A stretch of 64,000 nucleotides of DNA from Candidatus Sysuiplasma jiujiangense (GTDB lineage Archaea; Thermoplasmatota; Thermoplasmata; Sysuiplasmatales; Sysuiplasmataceae), in contig JAHEAD010000003.1 of the NCBI GenBank assembly GCA_019721075.1, positions 1 through 64,000 of the forward strand, read 5' to 3'. The notes under the pieces were generated by a model. It worked only from the letters and a program-made list of their open reading frames with translations, was not told where the DNA came from and searched no databases. Both the position numbers and the translations under genes were made by a program. Of this stretch, positions 2,970 to 60,929 are shown piece by piece. Within the stretch, counting starts at the first letter, position 1; each line of letters begins with the position of its first letter.

Positions 2970-3371
2970 TCAAAAACTCAGCATTTCGAGATTTGTTTCC
3001 TTTTCAATGACTGCAAAGTGCCTGATGTCGTTGGTCAATATTACACATCCGCTATTCAGGGCCTGTGCTGCTATGAGTATGTCCATATCGGGAACTCTCC
3101 CGCCCTTTAATGAAAGCCTTGCCATCATATCAGAAGCAGTTCTTGAGTCGTCATGAGTAAAAGGCAATGTTGCTGCATTGTTGAAAAACGCGCTAACCTC
3201 CTTATAATGGGATTTCAGGCTTTTCCCTTCTGAAAACCTTTCGCCCATCAATACTTCGTATGCGCATAATGAGCCAGTATAGATCTCGTCTGCCTTTTCA
3301 ATTGCAAGAAGGACCTTGGTGTTGTTGGCAAACAACTCTATTATAGCCGAAGAATCGAGAAACAGTTTCAC
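2970..3371 (-). CDS. vapC: PIN-domain toxin ribonuclease (VapC)
   Basis: A 133-residue PIN domain. The acidic metal-binding residues are visible: D6 in FLDSSAI, E39 in CAYEV, D95/D97 in RVPDMDILIAA, and D115 in ILTNDIRHF. VapC toxins cleave RNA, often tRNA or rRNA, and are neutralised by the VapB encoded with them. The start overlaps the end of the upstream antitoxin gene by four bases, the usual vapBC coupling. It lies between 38-bp repeat copies A and B. Confidence 0.9.
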   Translation of the reverse strand: MKLFLDSSAIIELFANNTKVLLAIEKADEIYTGSLCAYEVLMGERFSEGKSLKSHYKEVSAFFNNAATLPFTHDDSRTASDMMARLSLKGGRVPDMDILIAAQALNSGCVILTNDIRHFAVIEKETNLEMLSF

Positions 3372-3574
3372 AGTCTCGCCTTGAGACCACTTCTTACCTT
3401 CAACACTGCCTTATGCAGTTCCAGAGCTTCATTCCTGTCGATCAAACCCGCGAATTTCAAAATGGACACTTTGTTGGTCTGCTTTGTGCTATCAGCCAGC
3501 TCAGAGAGAAGTTCGGAAAAGCTCTTGTTTCCCTTGATTCTAATGAGTTTTTCGTAGGCCTGGTCGTTGATCAT
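3368..3574 (-). CDS. vapB: VapB antitoxin (DUF217/UPF0330 type)
   Basis: A 68-residue protein that opens MINDQAYEKLIRIKGNKSFS, the pattern of the DUF217 VapB antitoxins (ITDEAYERLK..KG..SFSE). The N-terminus is expected to bind DNA and the basic C-terminus to wrap the toxin. An in-frame TAA lies 9 bases upstream of the ATG, which fixes it as the first possible start. A TATA-like CATATAAC on the minus strand at 3600-3607 sits about 27 bases upstream, so the transcript is probably leaderless. Three 11-bp direct repeats just beyond the TATA box are a likely operator. Confidence 0.85.
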   Translation of the reverse strand: MINDQAYEKLIRIKGNKSFSELLSELADSTKQTNKVSILKFAGLIDRNEALELHKAVLKVRSGLKARL

Positions 3575-3607
3575 AATTGTCTTAATATTACCACCTTAGT
3601 GTTATAT

Positions 3608-3647
3608 GTATACAATCTGTATACAGTCTGTATACAATCTGTATATT
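3608..3647. promoter_or_regulatory. Three-and-a-half 11-bp direct repeats, putative vapBC operator
   Basis: The unit GTATACAATCT occurs at 3608, again at 3619 with one change (GTATACAGTCT), and again at 3630. It is followed by a partial copy (GTATATT). Each unit carries the palindrome GTATAC at exactly 11-bp spacing, about one helical turn. The array lies directly upstream of the TATA box of the minus-strand vapB at 3574. A cooperative binding site for the VapB-VapC complex is the simplest reading; this is inference from position and phasing. Confidence 0.55.
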
Positions 3648-3724
3648 TAGCTATCCCTCTTTATTCCCGCAAAACAGTCCTCTTCGAAATTCGGAAAGAG
3701 GGGAGGAGCCTGAAAGGATACGAT

Positions 3725-3762
3725 GTAAACGCGCTTCTTGAGTCGAGTCCCACCACGCCCGC
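3725..3762 (+). repeat. 38-bp direct repeat, copy B
   Basis: This copy begins GTAAACGC and ends GTCGAGTCCCACCACGCCCGC with the variable middle GCTTCTTGA. It has the same length and orientation as copies A and C, and separates the minus-strand vapBC from the plus-strand one. Confidence 0.65.
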
Positions 3763-3970
3763 TCTGTTCAGGCGCGCGCCCGTTTATTTCTTCGATTTCC
3801 CCTTCGAGTCGAAAGGCATAATTCAGTCCTTACTTTCCGCTTAGGAGAGTCGTCTTCTAAAAAGATTGGATGTTGCCTGTTTCGATCCTGTCAGTAGTCT
3901 TCTGTTGCCCAAACACAGAATCCAGCCTGCCAGAAAACCGGACCGTGCGTTCGGCAGGCCCATGCCAAGT

Positions 3971-3991
3971 GATATAAGTGTGTGCACACAT
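3971..3991 (+). promoter_or_regulatory. TATA box and adjoining palindrome before vapB
   Basis: GATATAAG at 3971-3978 is a TATA box about 26-33 bases before the ATG at 4004, fitting a leaderless transcript. Immediately after it comes TGTGTGCACACA (3979-3990), a perfect palindrome placed where a repressor would block initiation. It is a candidate VapB operator. Confidence 0.5.
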
Positions 3992-4003
3992 ACACATACT
4001 TGT

Positions 4004-4237
4004 ATGGCAACGAAAAATATCTCCATCACAAATGAAGCATACGAGTCACTGAAACGAGAAAGGAGGGGGAATGAAAGTTTCACTGAAGTCATCCTCAGAT
4101 TGGCCCATACGAGGGGCAGCCTGTCAGATTGCTTTGGGATCTGGAAGCTGACAGATCATGAGGAGACCAAAATCAATATGGAGCTGTCGAAGGGATGGCA
4201 AGCGATGAGGGAGAGGATCAGGAATGAAGTGCCTTGA
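4004..4237 (+). CDS. vapB: VapB antitoxin (DUF217 type)
   Basis: A 77-residue protein that begins MATKNISITNEAYESLKRER, the DUF217 antitoxin signature. The frame is open 46 codons further upstream, but the ATG at 4004 is preferred because the family begins here and because a TATA box lies 26-33 bases before it. The C-terminal part is amphipathic and charged, as expected for toxin binding. Its 3' end overlaps the vapC start by 14 bases. Confidence 0.85.
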   Translation: MATKNISITNEAYESLKRERRGNESFTEVILRLAHTRGSLSDCFGIWKLTDHEETKINMELSKGWQAMRERIRNEVP

Positions 4238-4616
4238 CACAGACTTCCTGATAGCCATCCTGAGAGGGAAACCTGAGGCAAGGGGCAAGCTCAGAGAGCT
4301 GGATGACGAGGGTAGGCAGGCAACCACGATAGTAAACTCGTTCGAGCTCTTCTATGGCGCTCACCGCTCAAGGGATAAGAAAGGAAGCGTACGGAAGGTG
4401 AAGAATCTTCTGGAAAGACTTGACGTACTTCCACTGAGCATGGAATCTTCGGAGCGGGCGGGAGAAAACTCGGCTTACCTGGCTTCACAGGGGGAATCTG
4501 TCGACTTTCGAGATGCCATGATAGCTGCTGTTGCAGTATCGAATGGTCTTACGCTGGTAACAAACAATAAGAACCATTTCTCACGCTTCCAAGACTTGGA
4601 ACTTGAATCATGGTGA
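4224..4616 (+). CDS. vapC: PIN-domain toxin ribonuclease (VapC)
   Basis: A 130-residue PIN domain with D5 and D7 in CLDTDFLI, E41 in NSFELF, and D94/D97 in SVDFRDAMIAA. The fourth acidic position is Asn-Asn (N114/N115 in LVTNNKNHF), which is common in this VapC subgroup. It overlaps the upstream antitoxin and lies between repeat copies B and C. Orientation is opposite to the previous module, so the repeat array does not dictate transcription direction. Confidence 0.9.
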   Translation: MKCLDTDFLIAILRGKPEARGKLRELDDEGRQATTIVNSFELFYGAHRSRDKKGSVRKVKNLLERLDVLPLSMESSERAGENSAYLASQGESVDFRDAMIAAVAVSNGLTLVTNNKNHFSRFQDLELESW

Positions 4617-50791: not shown

Positions 50792-51022
50792 ATGGCAAAG
50801 CTAATCGCGATTTCGGAGGATGTGTACAACAGACTTAGCAAACTCAAGGAAAGGGAGAAATCAAGGTCATTCACAGCAGTCATATCTGAACTTCTAGAGG
50901 CTAAAGAGAGAGATATCACGGATCTGTTTGGCGCTTGGAAGATGAGTGAAAAGGAAGCATCCGAACTAAATAGGCGGATCAGAAAAGAGAGAAGAGAGTC
51001 GTTTTCGAGAAGTGGTTTATAA
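50792..51022 (+). CDS. vapB: VapB antitoxin (DUF217 type)
   Basis: A 76-residue protein that begins MAKLIAISEDVYNRLSKLKE, the DUF217 antitoxin signature, with SFTAVISELLEAKERD following. The promoter is visible: TTTATAGCTTAATAAATT lies just before the ATG, so the mRNA is probably leaderless. It is the first module after tRNA-Gly. The base composition is more AT-rich than the flanking core genes. Confidence 0.87.
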   Translation: MAKLIAISEDVYNRLSKLKEREKSRSFTAVISELLEAKERDITDLFGAWKMSEKEASELNRRIRKERRESFSRSGL

Positions 51023-51023
51023 C

Positions 51024-51407
51024 ATGACAATTTTCGATACTAACATTGTTATTGACTATCTGAGGGGGAAGCAGCAAGCTTCGGAGATTATGGCGGATAA
51101 ACACTCCGAGATAGCAATTACAGTTATCACTGGTTACGAACTGCTCAAAGGTTACAGAACTAAGAAGGAAGAAACGACCGTCAACGAGTTATTAAACAGA
51201 GTCAGGATATACTGCATGGACAACAAGTCAATGCGCGTGTCAGGCAGCCTATACCGAGAATTGAAGAGCCGCAGAAAATTGAAGAATGAAGCGGATGTGT
51301 TGATTGCCGGCATTGTCCTGGCAAACAACGAAACTCTCATTACGGCAGACAGTGACTTCTCTGAACTTGAGGAAGCAATGGGTGAAAGCCTAATACTGCT
51401 GGAATAG
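51024..51407 (+). CDS. vapC: PIN-domain toxin ribonuclease (VapC)
   Basis: A 127-residue PIN domain with D5 in IFDTNIVIDYLRG, E39 in TGYELLKG, D91 in NEADVLIAGIVL, and D109/D111 in LITADSDFSEL. The ATG at 51024 lies two bases after the vapB stop. It is expected to cleave RNA when free of VapB. Confidence 0.9.
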   Translation: MTIFDTNIVIDYLRGKQQASEIMADKHSEIAITVITGYELLKGYRTKKEETTVNELLNRVRIYCMDNKSMRVSGSLYRELKSRRKLKNEADVLIAGIVLANNETLITADSDFSELEEAMGESLILLE

Positions 51408-51434
51408 GCAAATCCCAATTATGAAGCACAAACC

Positions 51435-51473
51435 CAGATTCGAACCTTAATGCGTATATCCGGGAGCCGCACA
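51435..51473 (+). repeat. tRNA-Gly 3'-end-like repeat, copy a
   Basis: 39 bases: CAGATTCGAACCTTAATGCG followed by TATATCCGGGAGCCGCACA. The ends match the tRNA-Gly T-loop and acceptor strand (TTCGAA...CGGCAGCCGCACA), with about 14 extra bases between them. It follows the first VapBC module. Confidence 0.6.
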
Positions 51474-51714
51474 CATTCAAAGATCGCAGAAAATTCGAAC
51501 TTGGAGTGAATAGTTGCTCCCGTGAAGTCCTGATACCTGAGATTCTAAGTCGCCATATCTTGGAATGCGAATAACCTGAACGAGACGCTCCAATCACTGG
51601 TATGGCGTGAAATGCAGAGTCCGTTCCAGGCGCTGCAATCCACAACGAGTGTCGGATAAATTACCATTATACCAGCAGAAAGATTAAATGGCATTATGGT
51701 ATATACATAGATCA

Positions 51715-51981
51715 ATGGAAGAAATAGCCGGCATAGACAGGGCGGGTAGGATAGTAATACCGAAGGAAATCCGAAAGGCGGCCGGAATCGACGAAGGTGC
51801 GAAGATTCTTATCACGATCTCTGGAGGCGGTCGCATAATACTCCAGAAATTGGATGTGAAATCAATAGCTGCGCGCCTTGAAAAAGAACTGGAAGGCAAA
51901 GACATCGATGAAATAACCAGCCGTATCAGGAAGGACGTAAATGCGCTTATCAGAAAGGCCTATCCGGTCCTTTCTCCTTGA
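51715..51981 (+). CDS. AbrB/SpoVT-type antitoxin
   Basis: An 88-residue protein with the swapped-hairpin AbrB DNA-binding domain (MEEIAGIDRAGRIVIPKEIR), followed by a helical toxin-binding tail (ARLEKELEGKDIDEITSRIR). The ATG at 51715 follows a TATA-like TATATAC by about 14 bases. It overlaps the PIN gene by 41 bases. Confidence 0.87.
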   Translation: MEEIAGIDRAGRIVIPKEIRKAAGIDEGAKILITISGGGRIILQKLDVKSIAARLEKELEGKDIDEITSRIRKDVNALIRKAYPVLSP

Positions 51982-52414
51982 TACAAACGTCTTTGTAGCT
52001 GCTGTGAGGCATCCAAGCAGGGAAACAGGCACACTTCGCTTCCTACTGGAAGTTATACAGAATGACAATTTGTCACTTGTTGGAAACGAATTTTGGGTAG
52101 AGGAGATGCTGCGTTATGCAGAGGAATTTCATTCCGAAACAGCAGCCTTGCTTGTTGAAGCACTACTCGGCAGGGCGCGTATGATACAGGTTGGAAACAA
52201 CTTCGTTTCCATATGTACCAAATATATGCCTGCAAACGATCCGGCAGACATTCTTCATGCAGCTACTTGCCTTCAGGAACGTGCAATCCTCATCACCAAT
52301 GACAAACACTCCAATCGGATAAGTGATGAGCACATCATCGAGGTCTGGAGCATAACCAAGGCCATCAGGTCCGGCATTGTAACGGCCAAAGCCGTCCATC
52401 ATGCTAAAGACTGA
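51941..52414 (+). CDS. vapC: PIN-domain toxin ribonuclease (VapC)
   Basis: A 157-residue PIN domain with D14 in FLLDTNVFVAAV, E54 in FWVEEML, D100/D103 in ANDPADILHAATCL, and D121 in ILITNDKHS. The C-terminus is longer than in the neighbouring VapCs. It is the second module of the tRNA-Gly array; its subgroup and antitoxin class differ from the first module. Confidence 0.88.
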   Translation: MRLSERPIRSFLLDTNVFVAAVRHPSRETGTLRFLLEVIQNDNLSLVGNEFWVEEMLRYAEEFHSETAALLVEALLGRARMIQVGNNFVSICTKYMPANDPADILHAATCLQERAILITNDKHSNRISDEHIIEVWSITKAIRSGIVTAKAVHHAKD

Positions 52415-52483
52415 AATCGACCGCTTAATGCAAAATGGCGCTGGTCATTTAAACGTGTTCTCTAAGCATGTACCATCCAATCT

Positions 52484-52523
52484 CAGATTCGAACCCTGAT
52501 ATGTATATCCCGGCAGCCGCACA
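52484..52523 (+). repeat. tRNA-Gly 3'-end-like repeat, copy b
   Basis: 40 bases: CAGATTCGAACCCTGATATG followed by TATATCCCGGCAGCCGCACA. The last 15 bases are identical to the 3' end of tRNA-Gly(CCC) plus its flank. A partial copy of the left end (GAGATTCGAACCT) recurs at 52541-52553. Confidence 0.65.
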
Positions 52524-52634
52524 TAGTCCACACTGGCCTGAGATTCGAACCTAAAGTGAACGGAAAGTCTGGGGCCCCTTTCGCAATGTCTAAAATCAGG
52601 GCTACACACCCTACCAGAGAAATGCGACGCATTT

Positions 52635-53057
52635 TTACGGAGATTCCTTACCGGGTTCTCTCAACCATGGGGTATAAACAAGACCTAGCAGGATGCCTTC
52701 TGGGCTGAGAAATCTGGAGACGATCTGACCGTAAGGCTCCTTGTACGAGTCCAGGAGGAGTGTGTGACCCTTTCTTTTCATTTCTTCAGAGGCCGCTTTC
52801 ACATCTTCTACTTCAAACTCCAGCCACGCCTGCGGTCTGGGGATATCATCCGGCCAAATCTTTCTTCCAAAACAGCCTTCTGCTGCCAATGAAAGTGGCC
52901 ATATGGCAAACCCTTTGCAACCATCAACATTCTGACCGTGCATATACCCCCCCTCATATTCTTTGAATTCTATTTCAAGATCCTCCGAGTATAATTTCCT
53001 GGATAGGGATAAGTCATCAGTTACGGGTCCAAAGCCCGCTATAAACAATATTTTCAT
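52635..53057 (-). CDS. VOC-superfamily (glyoxalase-like) protein
   Basis: A 140-residue protein with one clear VOC repeat (MKILFIAGFGPVTDDLSLSR ... WLEFEVEDVKAASEEMKRKG, RFLSPEGILLGLVYTPWL). It lies within the second array in the direction opposite to the toxin modules. Substrate unknown. The ATG at 53057 is preferred to 53084. Confidence 0.78.
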   Translation of the reverse strand: MKILFIAGFGPVTDDLSLSRKLYSEDLEIEFKEYEGGYMHGQNVDGCKGFAIWPLSLAAEGCFGRKIWPDDIPRPQAWLEFEVEDVKAASEEMKRKGHTLLLDSYKEPYGQIVSRFLSPEGILLGLVYTPWLREPGKESP

Positions 53058-53084
53058 TGAGTTTGAAAGCTGGGTCAATGCCAT

Positions 53085-53534
53085 AAGTCTTATTGTAATT
53101 GCAGCATTATAGGCTCAATAGCCTATTTCTTGAACCTATGAGAGATCGAACAGGTAGTCGGAGGACTCCCTCGTCTCTGATATCCCGTTTTTCATGGAGT
53201 AATCTCCTGAGAAGCAGCTTATGCCTTAGCCACTCATTAGCAGTTAGCCGATTGCGATGAGTGGGCTCCAATTCACACGTTTTCCGATGCCAAGTATGTT
53301 TTGTTTCGACACTGCTCGTCTTCTTTAAGGAAGACGAGCTTTATTTGAAGGAAGGAACTTCACACTCAGGTTGAAACAACAGGCGCAATTATCCTGTTTC
53401 CTTATGGAAGAGCATGGTCAGTAGACTTGTAGACTTTTTCACCATTTTTGTCGCCCGTCAACTTCTATGAGCTTACGTGTCAACCTTAGTAAATGAAAAC
53501 ACTAAATATATGAAAAATAATAATTGTTTTTGAT
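53085..53534. other. Gene-free stretch with a strong hairpin
   Basis: 450 bases without a gene. A 10-bp hairpin lies at 53314-53339. The part from 53491 to 53534 is the promoter of the next antitoxin and is duplicated at 54439. Confidence 0.5.
53314..53339 (+). terminator. Perfect 10-bp hairpin followed by T-rich DNA
   Basis: GCTCGTCTTC and GAAGACGAGC are perfectly complementary with a six-base loop TTTAAG, followed by TTTATTTG. It looks like an intrinsic terminator, but no gene precedes it on the plus strand, so it may instead be the end of a lost element. Confidence 0.4.
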
Positions 53535-53771
53535 ATGTCTAGTAAAAGCAAAATATCCAGGGGATTCCTGACAGTCGTTCCAAAAGAGGTGCGCAGGAAA
53601 GTCGGCCTCAAAGAAGGTGATACAATTGAATGGACTGTCAATGGAGAGTCGATAAGAGTCCTGCCGCACAAGAAAGTGTGCATTGACGACATTATCGCCA
53701 TCGCATCCCATGGCGGGGATGCGGTGGTTTCCAAGAAAGAAATTCAGGCGGGAAAGCGTGATCGTCGCTGA
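53535..53771 (+). CDS. AbrB/SpoVT-type antitoxin
   Basis: A 78-residue protein. MSSKSKISRGFLTVVPKEVR and KVGLKEGDTIEWTV form the AbrB hairpin domain. The tail VCIDDIIAIASHGGDAVVSK should bind the toxin. Its first 73 bases and about 44 bases of upstream DNA are duplicated at 54439-54553. It overlaps the PIN gene by 14 bases. Confidence 0.87.
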   Translation: MSSKSKISRGFLTVVPKEVRRKVGLKEGDTIEWTVNGESIRVLPHKKVCIDDIIAIASHGGDAVVSKKEIQAGKRDRR

Positions 53772-54144
53772 CTCCTCATATTTCATAGCGCTTGCCGACA
53801 AGAAGGATCAGTGGCATCGTAATGCTGTTGCAGTCAAAAGCCGGATTCCGCAAGAGTTCAAGATTTCGACACTGACTGTATCTGAAGCGGTTACCGCAAT
53901 CGGATACAGAGCCGGAGGAAAAGCAGCAAGGACACTTTATGATTATTTCGCCGACAACTGTTCAGTGGAGACTGTTGACAGACAATTGATGGATCTGGCC
54001 ATGACTGTTCACCTCAGGTTCGACGGAATCCTTTCTGTTGCCGATTCGGTTTCTGCCGCGATAATGACCAGGGATGGATTCAGGCAAATAGTGTCTTTTG
54101 ATAGCGACTTCGACAAGATCAAGGGGATACAACGTATCTACTAG
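53758..54144 (+). CDS. vapC: PIN-domain toxin ribonuclease (VapC)
   Basis: A 128-residue PIN domain with D5 in VIVADSSYFIAL, E43 in LTVSEAVTA, D96 in LSVADSVSAAIM, and D115/D117 in VSFDSDFDKIKGIQRI. The GTG at 53758 is chosen as start, because the PIN fold begins there and the overlap with the antitoxin (14 bases) is the usual one; the open frame upstream is antitoxin in another frame. Confidence 0.86.
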   Translation: MIVADSSYFIALADKKDQWHRNAVAVKSRIPQEFKISTLTVSEAVTAIGYRAGGKAARTLYDYFADNCSVETVDRQLMDLAMTVHLRFDGILSVADSVSAAIMTRDGFRQIVSFDSDFDKIKGIQRIY

Positions 54145-54842: not shown

Positions 54843-55628
54843 ATGACCTCAAATACCTACCCGACTGGAAATCACTCAAGAGCCGCGTCTAAATTCGTCG
54901 AGCTCTTCAGCAGTGAGAAGAGGATCGTTGCCATACTGCTTGTTGGATCCTGCGCGCGGGGATCAGCGAGCCCGGACTCATGTCTGGACATAACAGTCAT
55001 GATGGACGATGAACGGGATGCAGATGTTTTCGCAAAGCATGTAGAGAGCATCTGGAACACCACGGAGGAAAGTTCTGAACTGCAACGGACAGGCAGATTT
55101 TCGAACCTCGACCTCAACTTCACCGATGGGAAATTCAGACCTGGCAAGAGAGGCTGGACTTCAGGACCGGACTCTTTCGAAATTGAAGTGGGCAATACTT
55201 ACGTCTACTCTGTGCCGCTGTTTGACAGGGACGGGGCATTTGAAGAACGAGGAAGGGCATTTCTGCCCTATTACGATGATGAGCTGAGAAAGGAAAGACT
55301 CGCAAATATCGAGAAATATTTCTACAACAACCTTGACCACATACCGCTTTACGTCAGGAGAGGACTGCATTTCCAGAGCCTGGAGAGACTGATCAATGCC
55401 TCCAGGGAATATCTGCAGGCACTCTTTGTTTACAGCAGAATTTATCCAATTTCCTACGACAAATGGATCAGATTCCAGCTCGTGGATATGCTGAAGAGAT
55501 CTGACATTTATTTCGAACTTGTTGAAATGTTCCAGATAAAAAGGATCGAGAGCAACGAGCTCATTGACAAGAGCGCCAGGCTGAGGGACATGGCGGAGAG
55601 AGATCTGGGGTTCTCCGACTTCGGCTGA
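54843..55628 (+). CDS. Nucleotidyltransferase-fold protein
   Basis: A 261-residue protein with a pol-beta-type nucleotidyltransferase core: LLVGSCARGSASPDSCLDIT (GSxxRG...D motif), and a likely third acidic residue in NLDLNF. The C-terminal 130 residues are helical (LERLINASREYLQALFVYSR), as in aminoglycoside- or toxin-related nucleotidyltransferases of this group. The second Asp of the usual DxD is less clear. Substrate unknown; it could transfer nucleotides to a small molecule, protein or RNA. Confidence 0.72.
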   Translation: MTSNTYPTGNHSRAASKFVELFSSEKRIVAILLVGSCARGSASPDSCLDITVMMDDERDADVFAKHVESIWNTTEESSELQRTGRFSNLDLNFTDGKFRPGKRGWTSGPDSFEIEVGNTYVYSVPLFDRDGAFEERGRAFLPYYDDELRKERLANIEKYFYNNLDHIPLYVRRGLHFQSLERLINASREYLQALFVYSRIYPISYDKWIRFQLVDMLKRSDIYFELVEMFQIKRIESNELIDKSARLRDMAERDLGFSDFG

Positions 55629-57457: not shown

Positions 57458-57545
57458 GCCGTTGTAGCTCAGCTGGCAGAGCGTGTGGCTGTTAATTGAT
57501 GCAGCTACCATAAGGTCGACGGTTCAAATCCGTCCAACGGCGCCA
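57458..57545 (+). tRNA. tRNA-Asn(GTT) with 12-nt intron and encoded CCA
   Basis: The acceptor GCCGTTG pairs with CAACGGC, the discriminator is G and CCA is encoded. The D-stem GCTC/GAGC and T-arm GACGG TTCAAAT CCGTC are normal. The anticodon loop has 19 bases. CTGT pairs with GCAG around bulges TAA and CTA, the canonical bulge-helix-bulge, so the intron between 37 and 38 is 57495-57506 (12 nt). The spliced loop is CTGTTAA with anticodon GTT. Confidence 0.9.
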
Positions 57546-59588
57546 CTAAATAGCATCCATCTCTCTTTCCAGTATCGCCAGTTCCTGTCTTCCGAGCGTT
57601 TCCCTGCCAACCGAGACGAGAAGAAGCGAATTTCTTTCAGACATCTCATCCATCATCCTTCTTATCAGCCGGACGGTTCCTTCAAAGTTTGTATTGCTGA
57701 TGACGTACTGCAGATCGTCGATGTTGACAATGACCTGGACACCTGCCCTGGAATATTCCTCCAGAAAACTCTTTATTTCGTACTCTATTTTCTCAAGTGA
57801 CGGAACGAGTGTTGTCTCCTTTTCGCTTTCCCTGTCAGTCAGCCAGACAACCCTGGCATTTGCCAGCCCCGGATATTTGTTCCTCAGCCTGGACGGGTTC
57901 ATCCGCGTTATGTCGAGCGCCGCCCAGTTTTCAGACAGCTTTTCCTGGACCAGCAGGTGGCATAGGTCCGGCCGATCCTCCTCAATCAGGTATCCATGAC
58001 CGGATTTGAGCTCAACATGCTCCCTGTTTTCCTTCTTCTGCTCCTGTGAACCGTGAACTATCCTTTTTGCAATTTCGACGGAAGGGGGAAGTTTCATAAG
58101 AACACTGTACGCTACAATCCTGTTCAGGGCGCCTGTAAGTTCCCTGATATTTTCTTCAAAGGACTCGGCTATGAATTTAACAACGGCAGCGGGCACTGAA
58201 TAGTTCTCCTGCTTGATCTTCATGTCAAGTATTCTCTCCCGCATTTCAAAGTCAGGCCTGCGTATGTCCACGATAAGACCCGACTCGAGCCTGGAAGCAA
58301 TCTGTCCGTCGAGACCTTTGATCTCCTTTGGCAGCCTGTCCGATGCGCAGACAACATGCTTGCCCTCCTTCAGCATTGAGCTCATCACGGCAAGGAATTC
58401 GGCCTGTGCCTCCTCCTTTCCCGCCAGAAACTGAATATCGTCGAGAAGAAACAGATCAAGGTTACTGTATCTCTTGACTGCAGAATCGCGGCCGCCGGAT
58501 CTACGGCTTTCGGCAACCTCGTCACAGAATCTTTCTGCTCCTGTATAGAACACGTGGGCGCCCCGATTCTGTGAAACAAATCTGTTGCCAATGGCGTTGA
58601 GCAGGTGAGTCTTTCCCAGACCGGATGCGGAATAGACATACAGAGGGTTGTAGTTTTCCTCCTCCCCGTTGGCTATTGAAAGAGATGCGGCATACGGGAA
58701 TTTGTTCCCTGCTCCGACAACATAGTTTGAAAACTGCATTGACGGATTCAGACCGCTATGGACGGCATTCCTGGTGGAGTAGCCGCATGAACTGCAGATG
58801 CCTCCGGACATCCTGCTGTTGCAACTCGGGCAAAGGTTTGAACCGTTGACCGTCTTTTCAGCTCCGAATACAAGTGAGTAGACGCCGTCGTAATCTCCCT
58901 GAACCTCTGAATAATTGCCGCCAGATCCTGACTGCTTTTTTGCCCTGCGCCTGTCGTCTTCTGCAGGCCCTTTTCCGATCTGCTCCACTTTCATTGAAGA
59001 AGTAATCGCACCGTCGATGCGTTTGTCTGGCTTTTGCCGGATGGCGCCGGAAACATCCTCTCCGGCATCGGCCGCTTCGGTCCCGCTCCAGGAATAGGTC
59101 GTTTCGCCTTCATTGCCTGATGCCTCCCGTCCGATTGTTCCGGCACCCCTGGCGATCGACTCTTTCGGAGAAACCACGGTCCTGTCTGCCGCCCTGTCTT
59201 TCAATTTTTTAAATTTTTTTTGCCTTTCCGTATGCTCCGGCACGGATGGCTCAACGGCGGGTCCGGCCTCCTGGCCGGGAATGTAATATACCCTGAGCTT
59301 GCTCATTTTATTAAGCGCCTCATGCCAGACATTTTTCAGTGCCTCTCTTCCCTGCTTTGCCTCAACTGTCCCTTCGGGAAGCGATTTCTTGTAAAGTGCC
59401 TCTGAAACGGAACCGTTTTTGAAGGATATGTAGCCGCGGATTTTCTCCCTGCCTTCTGAGCGTTCGAGTATAATGACTGCTGAATGCCTGCCTTTCTTGA
59501 GTTCATCGGACAGTGTCTTCATGCTGTCTGCTCCGCCTGAAACCGTCCTGATGGCATTCGTTCTTGAGCGATCGCTATCCAGTTGCAT
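57546..59588 (-). CDS. DnaA-type AAA+ ATPase fused to DUF835 (archaeal)
   Basis: A 680-residue multidomain protein. (1) Residues ~23-103 form a small beta-rich domain with GxIxF-type features (RGYISFKNGSVSEALYKKSL). (2) A charged linker spans ~105-245. (3) A zinc ribbon has C253/C256/C265/C268. (4) A bacterial DnaA ATPase domain spans ~280-500: NPSMQFSNYVVGAGNKFPYA, PLYVYSASGLGKTHLLNAIG (Walker A), LFLLDDIQFLAGKEEAQAEF (Walker B), sensor CASDRLPKEI, Arg finger region ASRLESGLIVDI and sensor II NIRELTGAL. (5) DUF835 is at ~530-680 (GYLIEEDRP ... ITRMNPSRLRNKYPG ... ILEREMDAI). The DnaA DNA-binding domain IV is absent. The first Gly of the P-loop is Ser. DUF835 is a typical archaeal signalling domain of unknown role. 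Confidence 0.88.
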   Translation of the reverse strand: MQLDSDRSRTNAIRTVSGGADSMKTLSDELKKGRHSAVIILERSEGREKIRGYISFKNGSVSEALYKKSLPEGTVEAKQGREALKNVWHEALNKMSKLRVYYIPGQEAGPAVEPSVPEHTERQKKFKKLKDRAADRTVVSPKESIARGAGTIGREASGNEGETTYSWSGTEAADAGEDVSGAIRQKPDKRIDGAITSSMKVEQIGKGPAEDDRRRAKKQSGSGGNYSEVQGDYDGVYSLVFGAEKTVNGSNLCPSCNSRMSGGICSSCGYSTRNAVHSGLNPSMQFSNYVVGAGNKFPYAASLSIANGEEENYNPLYVYSASGLGKTHLLNAIGNRFVSQNRGAHVFYTGAERFCDEVAESRRSGGRDSAVKRYSNLDLFLLDDIQFLAGKEEAQAEFLAVMSSMLKEGKHVVCASDRLPKEIKGLDGQIASRLESGLIVDIRRPDFEMRERILDMKIKQENYSVPAAVVKFIAESFEENIRELTGALNRIVAYSVLMKLPPSVEIAKRIVHGSQEQKKENREHVELKSGHGYLIEEDRPDLCHLLVQEKLSENWAALDITRMNPSRLRNKYPGLANARVVWLTDRESEKETTLVPSLEKIEYEIKSFLEEYSRAGVQVIVNIDDLQYVISNTNFEGTVRLIRRMMDEMSERNSLLLVSVGRETLGRQELAILEREMDAI

Positions 59589-59654: not shown

Positions 59655-60929
59655 TCAGACATAGCCCATTTTGCTAATCTCTGAACGTGCCAGCAGCAGA
59701 AAGGCAGCAAGCAGCGCAAGCGCAAAACCGAATATTTCGGCACCGGCGGCAAGACCCGAATAGAGAATAAGTATGCCTAGTGCGAGGTTCCCGCCTCCCC
59801 TTCCCATTCCGCGGAGAAGGTATGCGTTGCCCTTCACCCTTGCCATATGGTCGTGATCGACAGTGGACTGAATATATGAGTTATAACCGTTGTAAAAAAT
59901 CGGATCGAAAGAGCCTACCAGGAACCATATCATGTCAGTAAGCACAATACTGTGCACTGTCACCGGGCTGAGCGCTATCAGAAAGCCTTCGACAAAAGTG
60001 GTCAGCAGCATTACGCGGCCAATTCTCGGTGTAGGATTCAGCTTGCCAAAAATGAAATTGCCGGCAAAACCGCCCGCAAGGAGCAGTGCATTGAGTATTC
60101 CGTACTCGGTCACATCGTCATGCAGATAGGTGAACGATATGACCGTTATCAGGAGAATCGGTGCGACAGAGAAAAATCCCTGCAATCCCGAGACGAAGAA
60201 GAGCTCTCTGAGATCCTTTCTTGCGCCATGCATAACATATCTCCATCCCTCGATCAGGCTGGAAGAGAGGGCACCGGCAGAGAGGGAGCGTTTTTCCGTA
60301 TGCGGGACATTGACTGTCCTCATAATCGCAGCCGAAGCCAGAAAAGTAATCGCATAAATTGTTGAAACACCCTGGACACCCACAATCGCGATGACAATGC
60401 CCGCAAGCGCGTTGATGAATATTGTTGAGCCGCCACCAAACGCCTGCATCAGCGAGTTTGCCTGGAGCAACTTCTGCCTCTTCAGAATCAGCGGGAGCAT
60501 CGCTGATTGCGCAAGCCAGGGAAAATCCCAGAGAAATGCCATAAGGAATGCAATAAGCAGAATGAGCGGGACTGTCACAGCCCTGAAAATTATCAGTACG
60601 GTTACGATGACTGCAATGCCGGCCTGTATCGGAAATACCTTCGTGATAAACAGCTTTTTGTTTGATGTGCTGTCTATGAGCGGCCCGACCACGGCGGTAA
60701 GCGAATATGTTGAAAATTCAACAAACAGGACACCGCCTGTGACTGCGGCAGAATGACTCGTCGTTATGACAAGCCATGTAATTGCCAGCTCGAACATGCC
60801 GTATCCCAGATCGGCCGAAAGGGTGGATGCCCAGAATCTGAGGAAGTTTCGGTCCTGGAACAGTGCAGAATAATTTCCGCGACTCATCCTTCCGCCAATC
60901 CGGGATCCGGAATAATATGCCTTTGTCAT
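59655..60929 (-). CDS. Major facilitator superfamily transporter
   Basis: A 424-residue membrane protein with about 12 hydrophobic segments. N-terminal LFQDRNFLRFWASTLSADLG and the loop-2 region following LTAVVGPLIDSTSNKKLFI correspond to the MFS fold of the MFS_3/enterobactin-exporter group. It is predicted to export or import a small solute driven by protons. Specificity unknown. A TATA-like element is not clear. The upstream neighbour is tRNA-Thr on the other strand. Confidence 0.85.
   Translation of the reverse strand: MTKAYYSGSRIGGRMSRGNYSALFQDRNFLRFWASTLSADLGYGMFELAITWLVITTSHSAAVTGGVLFVEFSTYSLTAVVGPLIDSTSNKKLFITKVFPIQAGIAVIVTVLIIFRAVTVPLILLIAFLMAFLWDFPWLAQSAMLPLILKRQKLLQANSLMQAFGGGSTIFINALAGIVIAIVGVQGVSTIYAITFLASAAIMRTVNVPHTEKRSLSAGALSSSLIEGWRYVMHGARKDLRELFFVSGLQGFFSVAPILLITVISFTYLHDDVTEYGILNALLLAGGFAGNFIFGKLNPTPRIGRVMLLTTFVEGFLIALSPVTVHSIVLTDMIWFLVGSFDPIFYNGYNSYIQSTVDHDHMARVKGNAYLLRGMGRGGGNLALGILILYSGLAAGAEIFGFALALLAAFLLLARSEISKMGYV

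Follow-up and report, generated by a model that had tools for sequence, protein, structure and literature searches.

A bacterial-type DnaA domain III ATPase joined to DUF835 in archaea of the class Thermoplasmata

The genome of Candidatus Sysuiplasma jiujiangense encodes a protein in which the ATPase core of bacterial DnaA (domain III) is followed by a DUF835 domain, and this protein belongs to a lineage-wide family and is not a stray acquisition. The identities of its domains are nearly certain. DnaA is taken as a mark of bacterial replication, while the archaeal initiator is Orc1/Cdc6, an AAA+ ATPase of the initiator clade. The role of the DnaA-DUF835 protein is probably that of a regulatory switch and not that of a second initiator. 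Our more specific proposal, to which we give about an even chance, is that ATP drives it as an oligomeric switch within a regulatory network of the KaiC type, and that it derives from a captured bacterial DnaA core.

Domain architecture and identity of the ATPase core

The window, that is, the whole stretch of DNA analysed here, comprises the first 64,000 nucleotides of contig JAHEAD010000003.1. The gene, the parts of its product and the adjoining upstream gene are listed in Table 1.

Table 1. Coordinates of the DnaA-DUF835 gene, its encoded domains and the upstream gene in the window
Feature	Position	Strand	Basis or remark
DnaA-DUF835 fusion protein	57546..59588	-	ATG start, 680 aa
N-terminal beta domain, DUF4388/DUF2226-like, aa 12-105	59274..59555	-	AlphaFold pLDDT mostly about 90 or more; weak Pfam match
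Linker, predicted disordered, aa 107-249	58842..59270	-	pLDDT <50
Four-Cys zinc knuckle, Cys 253, 256, 265, 268	58785..58832	-	Sequence; Pfam DZR 0.011
DnaA domain III AAA+ core, aa 280-513	58050..58751	-	Pfam, residue alignment, AlphaFold, fold search
DUF835, KaiC/RecA-like fold without P-loop, aa 523-680	57549..58022	-	Pfam 8.5e-19; pLDDT 95; Foldseek
MFS-type transporter, directly upstream	59655..60929	-	In the window's own family only; probably outside the system

The original prediction of a DnaA core combined with DUF835 was confirmed by domain search, both Pfam matches being above the cut-off: Bac_DnaA at aa 280-441 (3e-49) and DUF835 (PF05763) at aa 546-677 (68.1 bits against a cut-off of 33.1). 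The N-terminal beta domain and the zinc knuckle are likewise present as described, with weak matches to DUF4388 (aa 30-97, 0.0097) and to the double zinc ribbon (aa 246-272). Each Cys of the knuckle is retained in 33 of the 53 aligned class members. Neither DnaA domain I (DnaA_N) nor domain IV (Bac_DnaA_C) gave a Pfam match in the 680 residues, and DUF835 occupies the position that domain IV has in DnaA. The absence of domain IV had been noticed from the translation, and it extends to the 53 aligned members of the class, none of which has a Bac_DnaA_C match.

The DnaA motif of the protein is NPSMQFSNYVVGAGN and the motif series of domain III was found to be complete: Walker A (K326, T327), Walker B (D383, D384), sensor I (D417), the box VII arginine finger (R433) and sensor II (R482). 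The NCBIfam DnaA model TIGR00362 scored 275.6 bits over aa 271-520, which is under the full-length cut-off of 343.9, as is expected when domain IV is missing. The closest solved structures are exclusively of DnaA domain III (8bv3, 1e-58; 2z4r, 2e-43; 1l8q, 5e-37), with Hda at just 6e-7. The AlphaFold model of the core matched domain III of B. subtilis DnaA with an E-value of 6e-24 and a TM-score of 0.94, Hda coming behind and other AAA+ proteins far behind. Profile and fold comparisons both keep the core with DnaA, and neither draws it towards Cdc6, RuvB or any other clade; the Orc1/Cdc6 model TIGR02928 picks two other genes in the same genome and not this one.

The AAA+ core resembles domain III of the bacterial proteins (B. 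subtilis 8bv3/8btg, T. maritima 2z4r, A. aeolicus 1l8q/3r8f) throughout its length, with 44% identity to 8bv3 in the fold alignment. The differences from bacterial DnaA lie in the lack of domains I and IV, in the added N-domain, zinc knuckle and DUF835, and in single residues, among them Ser in place of Trp288 of box VII. The protein shares with Hda a DnaA-like AAA+ core without a DNA-binding domain. However, the Hda model TIGR03420 gave only 78.6 bits (cut-off 194.8), the N-terminus is different, being a separate beta domain, and Hda has no KaiC-like tail. The suggested likeness to Hda/DnaC-type regulators therefore pointed to the wrong family.

Residue conservation, the KaiC-like tail and a split gene pair

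How much of the DnaA machinery has been kept? Residues were counted in 54 rows of the class, in E. coli numbering, with 16 bacterial rows for comparison. Walker A is present in all rows (K178 and T179, 54/54), as is D235 of Walker B, while D236 is found in 51, sensor I D269 in 48, sensor II R334 in 49 and the arginine finger R285 in 46, with Lys in another five. The P-loop reads SASGLGKT, as had been pointed out; its first Gly is replaced by Ser in 32 of the 54 rows, which makes this a trait of the lineage rather than evidence of decay. The residues that contact ssDNA behave differently: position V211, occupied by Ile or Val in 14 of the 16 bacterial rows, has Ile in only 14 of the 54 class rows, and R245 has given way to Glu or Asp in 25 of them. 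The window protein has A359 and E393 at these two positions. Both positions belong to the initiator-specific motif (ISM), whose erosion is uneven, K243 being retained in the window protein and I211 in some relatives. This pattern indicates that the machinery of ATP-driven assembly has been kept, while both DNA-contact surfaces have been lost or eroded.

Could the protein still be a true bacterial-style initiator, obtained by horizontal transfer and working alongside Orc1/Cdc6? The intact ATPase motifs and the DnaA-type fold speak for it, but domain IV is missing from all 53 aligned class members, the equivalog cut-off of TIGR00362 is missed, the ISM residues are not conserved, and Orc1/Cdc6 is retained in all 20 DnaA-bearing genomes tested. 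The window's genome has two such genes, one 68 kb off on the same contig and the second on another contig, so the DnaA-like protein does not replace the archaeal initiator. We consider this explanation very improbable.

The C-terminal domain leads in another direction. Modelled alone, DUF835 has its best fold matches in FlaH, Elp456, BcsE-complex subunits and KaiC (Foldseek: FlaH 8.6e-6, KaiC 2e-5, TMq 0.5-0.66), and the consensus of 48 DUF835 sequences contains no Walker A P-loop of the form GxxxxGK[ST]. DUF835 has been listed as an inactivated KaiC in a study according to which archaeal signalling combines bacterial components with a KaiC-based core into a hybrid (PMC5847659). The addition of DUF835 stands as first proposed, and its "sensory-type" label does not, since both that study and the fold matches make it an inactivated KaiC-like domain. 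The DnaA-DUF835 protein fits this hybrid scheme and shares the KaiC-like fold without P-loop, but the same paper gives DUF835 together with REC and PAS domains, and DnaA has no occurrence in its text.

In two families outside the class (f47 and f55), the same parts are found as tandem genes. The upstream gene consists of the N-domain (hhalign 98.9%, E 1.6e-17) and DUF835 (hhalign 99.8%), and the downstream gene codes for a divergent DnaA-like protein (43-69 bits) corresponding to the DnaA core (hhalign 99.8%). In 7 of the 12 pairs the two genes share exactly 4 nt. That one lineage has these parts fused and another has them side by side is good evidence of joint function. The DnaA-like proteins of these two families seem to have lost the arginine finger and sensor I and may therefore not oligomerise as DnaA does. 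The idea of a recruited ATPase switch agrees with this split form and with the residue pattern.

Distribution, inheritance and gene neighbourhood

Genes in the window for PriL, glycerol-1-phosphate dehydrogenase, a tRNA-splicing endonuclease and deoxyhypusine synthase mark its genome as archaeal. In the family of this genome, 8 of 8 genomes gave a strong Bac_DnaA match; across the class, 108 of 300 genomes and 42 of 91 genera did so, at 1e-15 or better. Among the 53 aligned members, Bac_DnaA is present in 53 and DUF835 in 52. Our archaeal survey covered one phylum. In the DnaA tree computed without long branches, which replaced a tree of all rows whose base was unresolved, 40 class rows lie on one side and bacteria with other archaea on the other (UFB 96, SH-aLRT 85), a placement that does not extend to the families f41, f50, f57 and f61 outside the class. 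One clade of all DUF835-bearing rows was not rejected (p-AU 0.87), and within the class, rows of the same family mostly cluster. A single acquisition followed by inheritance and loss would be the simplest reading.

Bacterial DnaA contigs do enter some archaeal bins, and contamination of the metagenome bin was therefore weighed. The window gene, however, lies on an archaeal contig, the same gene occurs in 108 genomes of the class, and the class rows form a clade apart from bacteria. Contamination has a negligible probability and is refuted for the window gene; it is true of locus L107 only. That locus (G524, 3096-4466) encodes a bacterial DnaA of full length, which includes DnaA_N and DnaA_C, and has a gyrB gene nearby; its contig is bacterial and contaminates the bin of an archaeal family.

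An origin from viruses or mobile elements was also rejected: the scan of viral contigs with the core alignment gave matches only at 38% identity or less, and the phage and plasmid searches gave no record in which one place covered 80% of the protein. The scan of genome contigs with the whole protein returned two bacterial DnaA genes only. Further archaeal DnaA architectures, mostly without DUF835, were seen in f41, f57 and f61, where DnaA-core proteins reach about 1200-1400 aa (L088, L096, L097, L100, L110), with 425-aa forms in f41 (L091, L094, L095).

In bacteria, dnaA and gyrB are classic neighbours at oriC, as is visible at the E. coli locus (L136). Among the matches listed, gyrB lies within 10 kb of the archaeal gene in 26 of the 28 tabulated class genomes that have both on one contig, in eight families (f1, f3, f19, f20, f29, f30, f32, f33). 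In the window's genome, gyrB and gyrA follow shortly after the end of the window, some 5-9 kb away from the gene, and in six genomes of f3, f20 and f29 the main orc1 is 41-48 kb away. Together with the bacterial parallel, this would suit a regulator of replication or topology, in which the DnaA core would work with Orc1/Cdc6, MCM or gyrase near the origin, in a Hda-like or DnaA-like manner. We see such a role as a possible but rather unlikely one. The gyrase block is one inherited synteny block, much of which is clearly unrelated (thiC, OGG and Lhr-type genes), and there is no gyrase link in f7, f11, f14, f18 and f23, despite the same protein architecture, so that the proximity may be passive. 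Since 286 of the 300 class genomes have gyrB, whether they carry DnaA or not, co-occurrence is uninformative and linkage alone was used. The loss of domain IV and the eroded ISM residues also argue against this role. No dnaN- or recF-like gene is prominent among the recurrent neighbours and the linkage is not known to be ancestral, so that transfer of a dnaA and gyrBA block is unsupported.

KaiC-family ATPase genes recur near DnaA-DUF835 loci in several families. In the window's genome, one of them directly follows gyrA (G000:C3:68993-69658, +). Against the switch that we prefer, the KaiC partner is a mere neighbour and not a universal one, the genome itself has many KaiC genes (10 matches), and the proximity of gyrBA and orc1 points at least equally to chromosome biology as to signalling.

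In most of the 29 class loci, the adjoining convergent downstream gene encodes a zinc-ribbon protein with helical repeats. This neighbour, and the patchy presence of the DnaA gene in the class, which shows that it is dispensable, would be compatible with a relic, or with a promiscuous AAA+ adaptor in cell division or an unrelated assembly, for example together with the convergent gene. A relic would hardly show such strong conservation of catalytic residues, and convergent neighbours are not co-transcribed; we find this explanation improbable.

Several other features were observed in the surroundings. A tRNA gene (57458-57545, +) is convergent with the DnaA-DUF835 gene and ends directly before its stop codon; its anticodon call, gtta, is odd, and the simplest reading is an intron-containing tRNA-Asn. 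Three PIN-domain proteins are encoded at 51012-54144, one adjoining a MazE/AbrB-type antitoxin gene, in a VapBC-like cluster, and a 261-aa nucleotidyltransferase-domain protein at 54843-55628 (+) has no NCBIfam match. The gyrB ORFs of G195:C11, G199:C27, G219:C68, G077:C8, G187:C4 and G186:C45 have 820-1120 aa instead of the usual about 640, with the gyrB match spread over the extra length, and inteins or insertions are probable.

Proposed mode of action and significance

We favour the switch over control of replication or topology. Domain content, fold, the conservation and erosion of residues, inheritance and the split pair are the observations behind it, and from these we infer oligomerisation, a KaiC partner, a role in signalling and a pathway as follows. 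A bacterial-type DnaA domain III would have been captured early in the archaeal lineage and built into a native KaiC-type network. ATP-bound DnaA cores would stack via the arginine finger and sensor II, like those of bacterial DnaA, and ATP hydrolysis would disassemble the stack. The assembly may display inactive KaiC-like DUF835 domains where DNA-binding domain IV once was, with the N-terminal beta domain and zinc knuckle held out on a long flexible tether. DUF835 could dock on active KaiC-family ATPases or on other partners, and signals from the N-domain or from a partner would determine whether ATP or ADP is bound and thereby govern an output complex.

The proximity of the origin and gyrase genes keeps a link with replication possible. 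A broader scenario, which we put forward as doubtful, is that DnaA came from bacteria, perhaps with the gyrase genes, and became a lineage-wide second layer of initiation or supercoiling control near the Orc1/Cdc6 origin, driven by KaiC-type signals.

In the literature searched, we found no text that joins DnaA with DUF835 or describes an archaeal DnaA; the KaiC-hub paper (mBio 8:e01959-17) may list the fusion. DnaA is unmentioned in the 2022 census of archaeal gyrase and in the Methanomassiliicoccales genome paper. The component domains are already in Pfam, and what is new here is the lineage-wide spread of the DnaA-DUF835 family.

The split pair is a small two-protein system that is directly testable. 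With gyrase and orc1 nearby, it is reasonable to ask whether the protein is linked to chromosome control. That an archaeal lineage has long kept a DnaA core which in every case lacks domain IV, and in almost every case carries an inactive KaiC domain, suggests a further use of the DnaA ATPase as a DNA-free switch.
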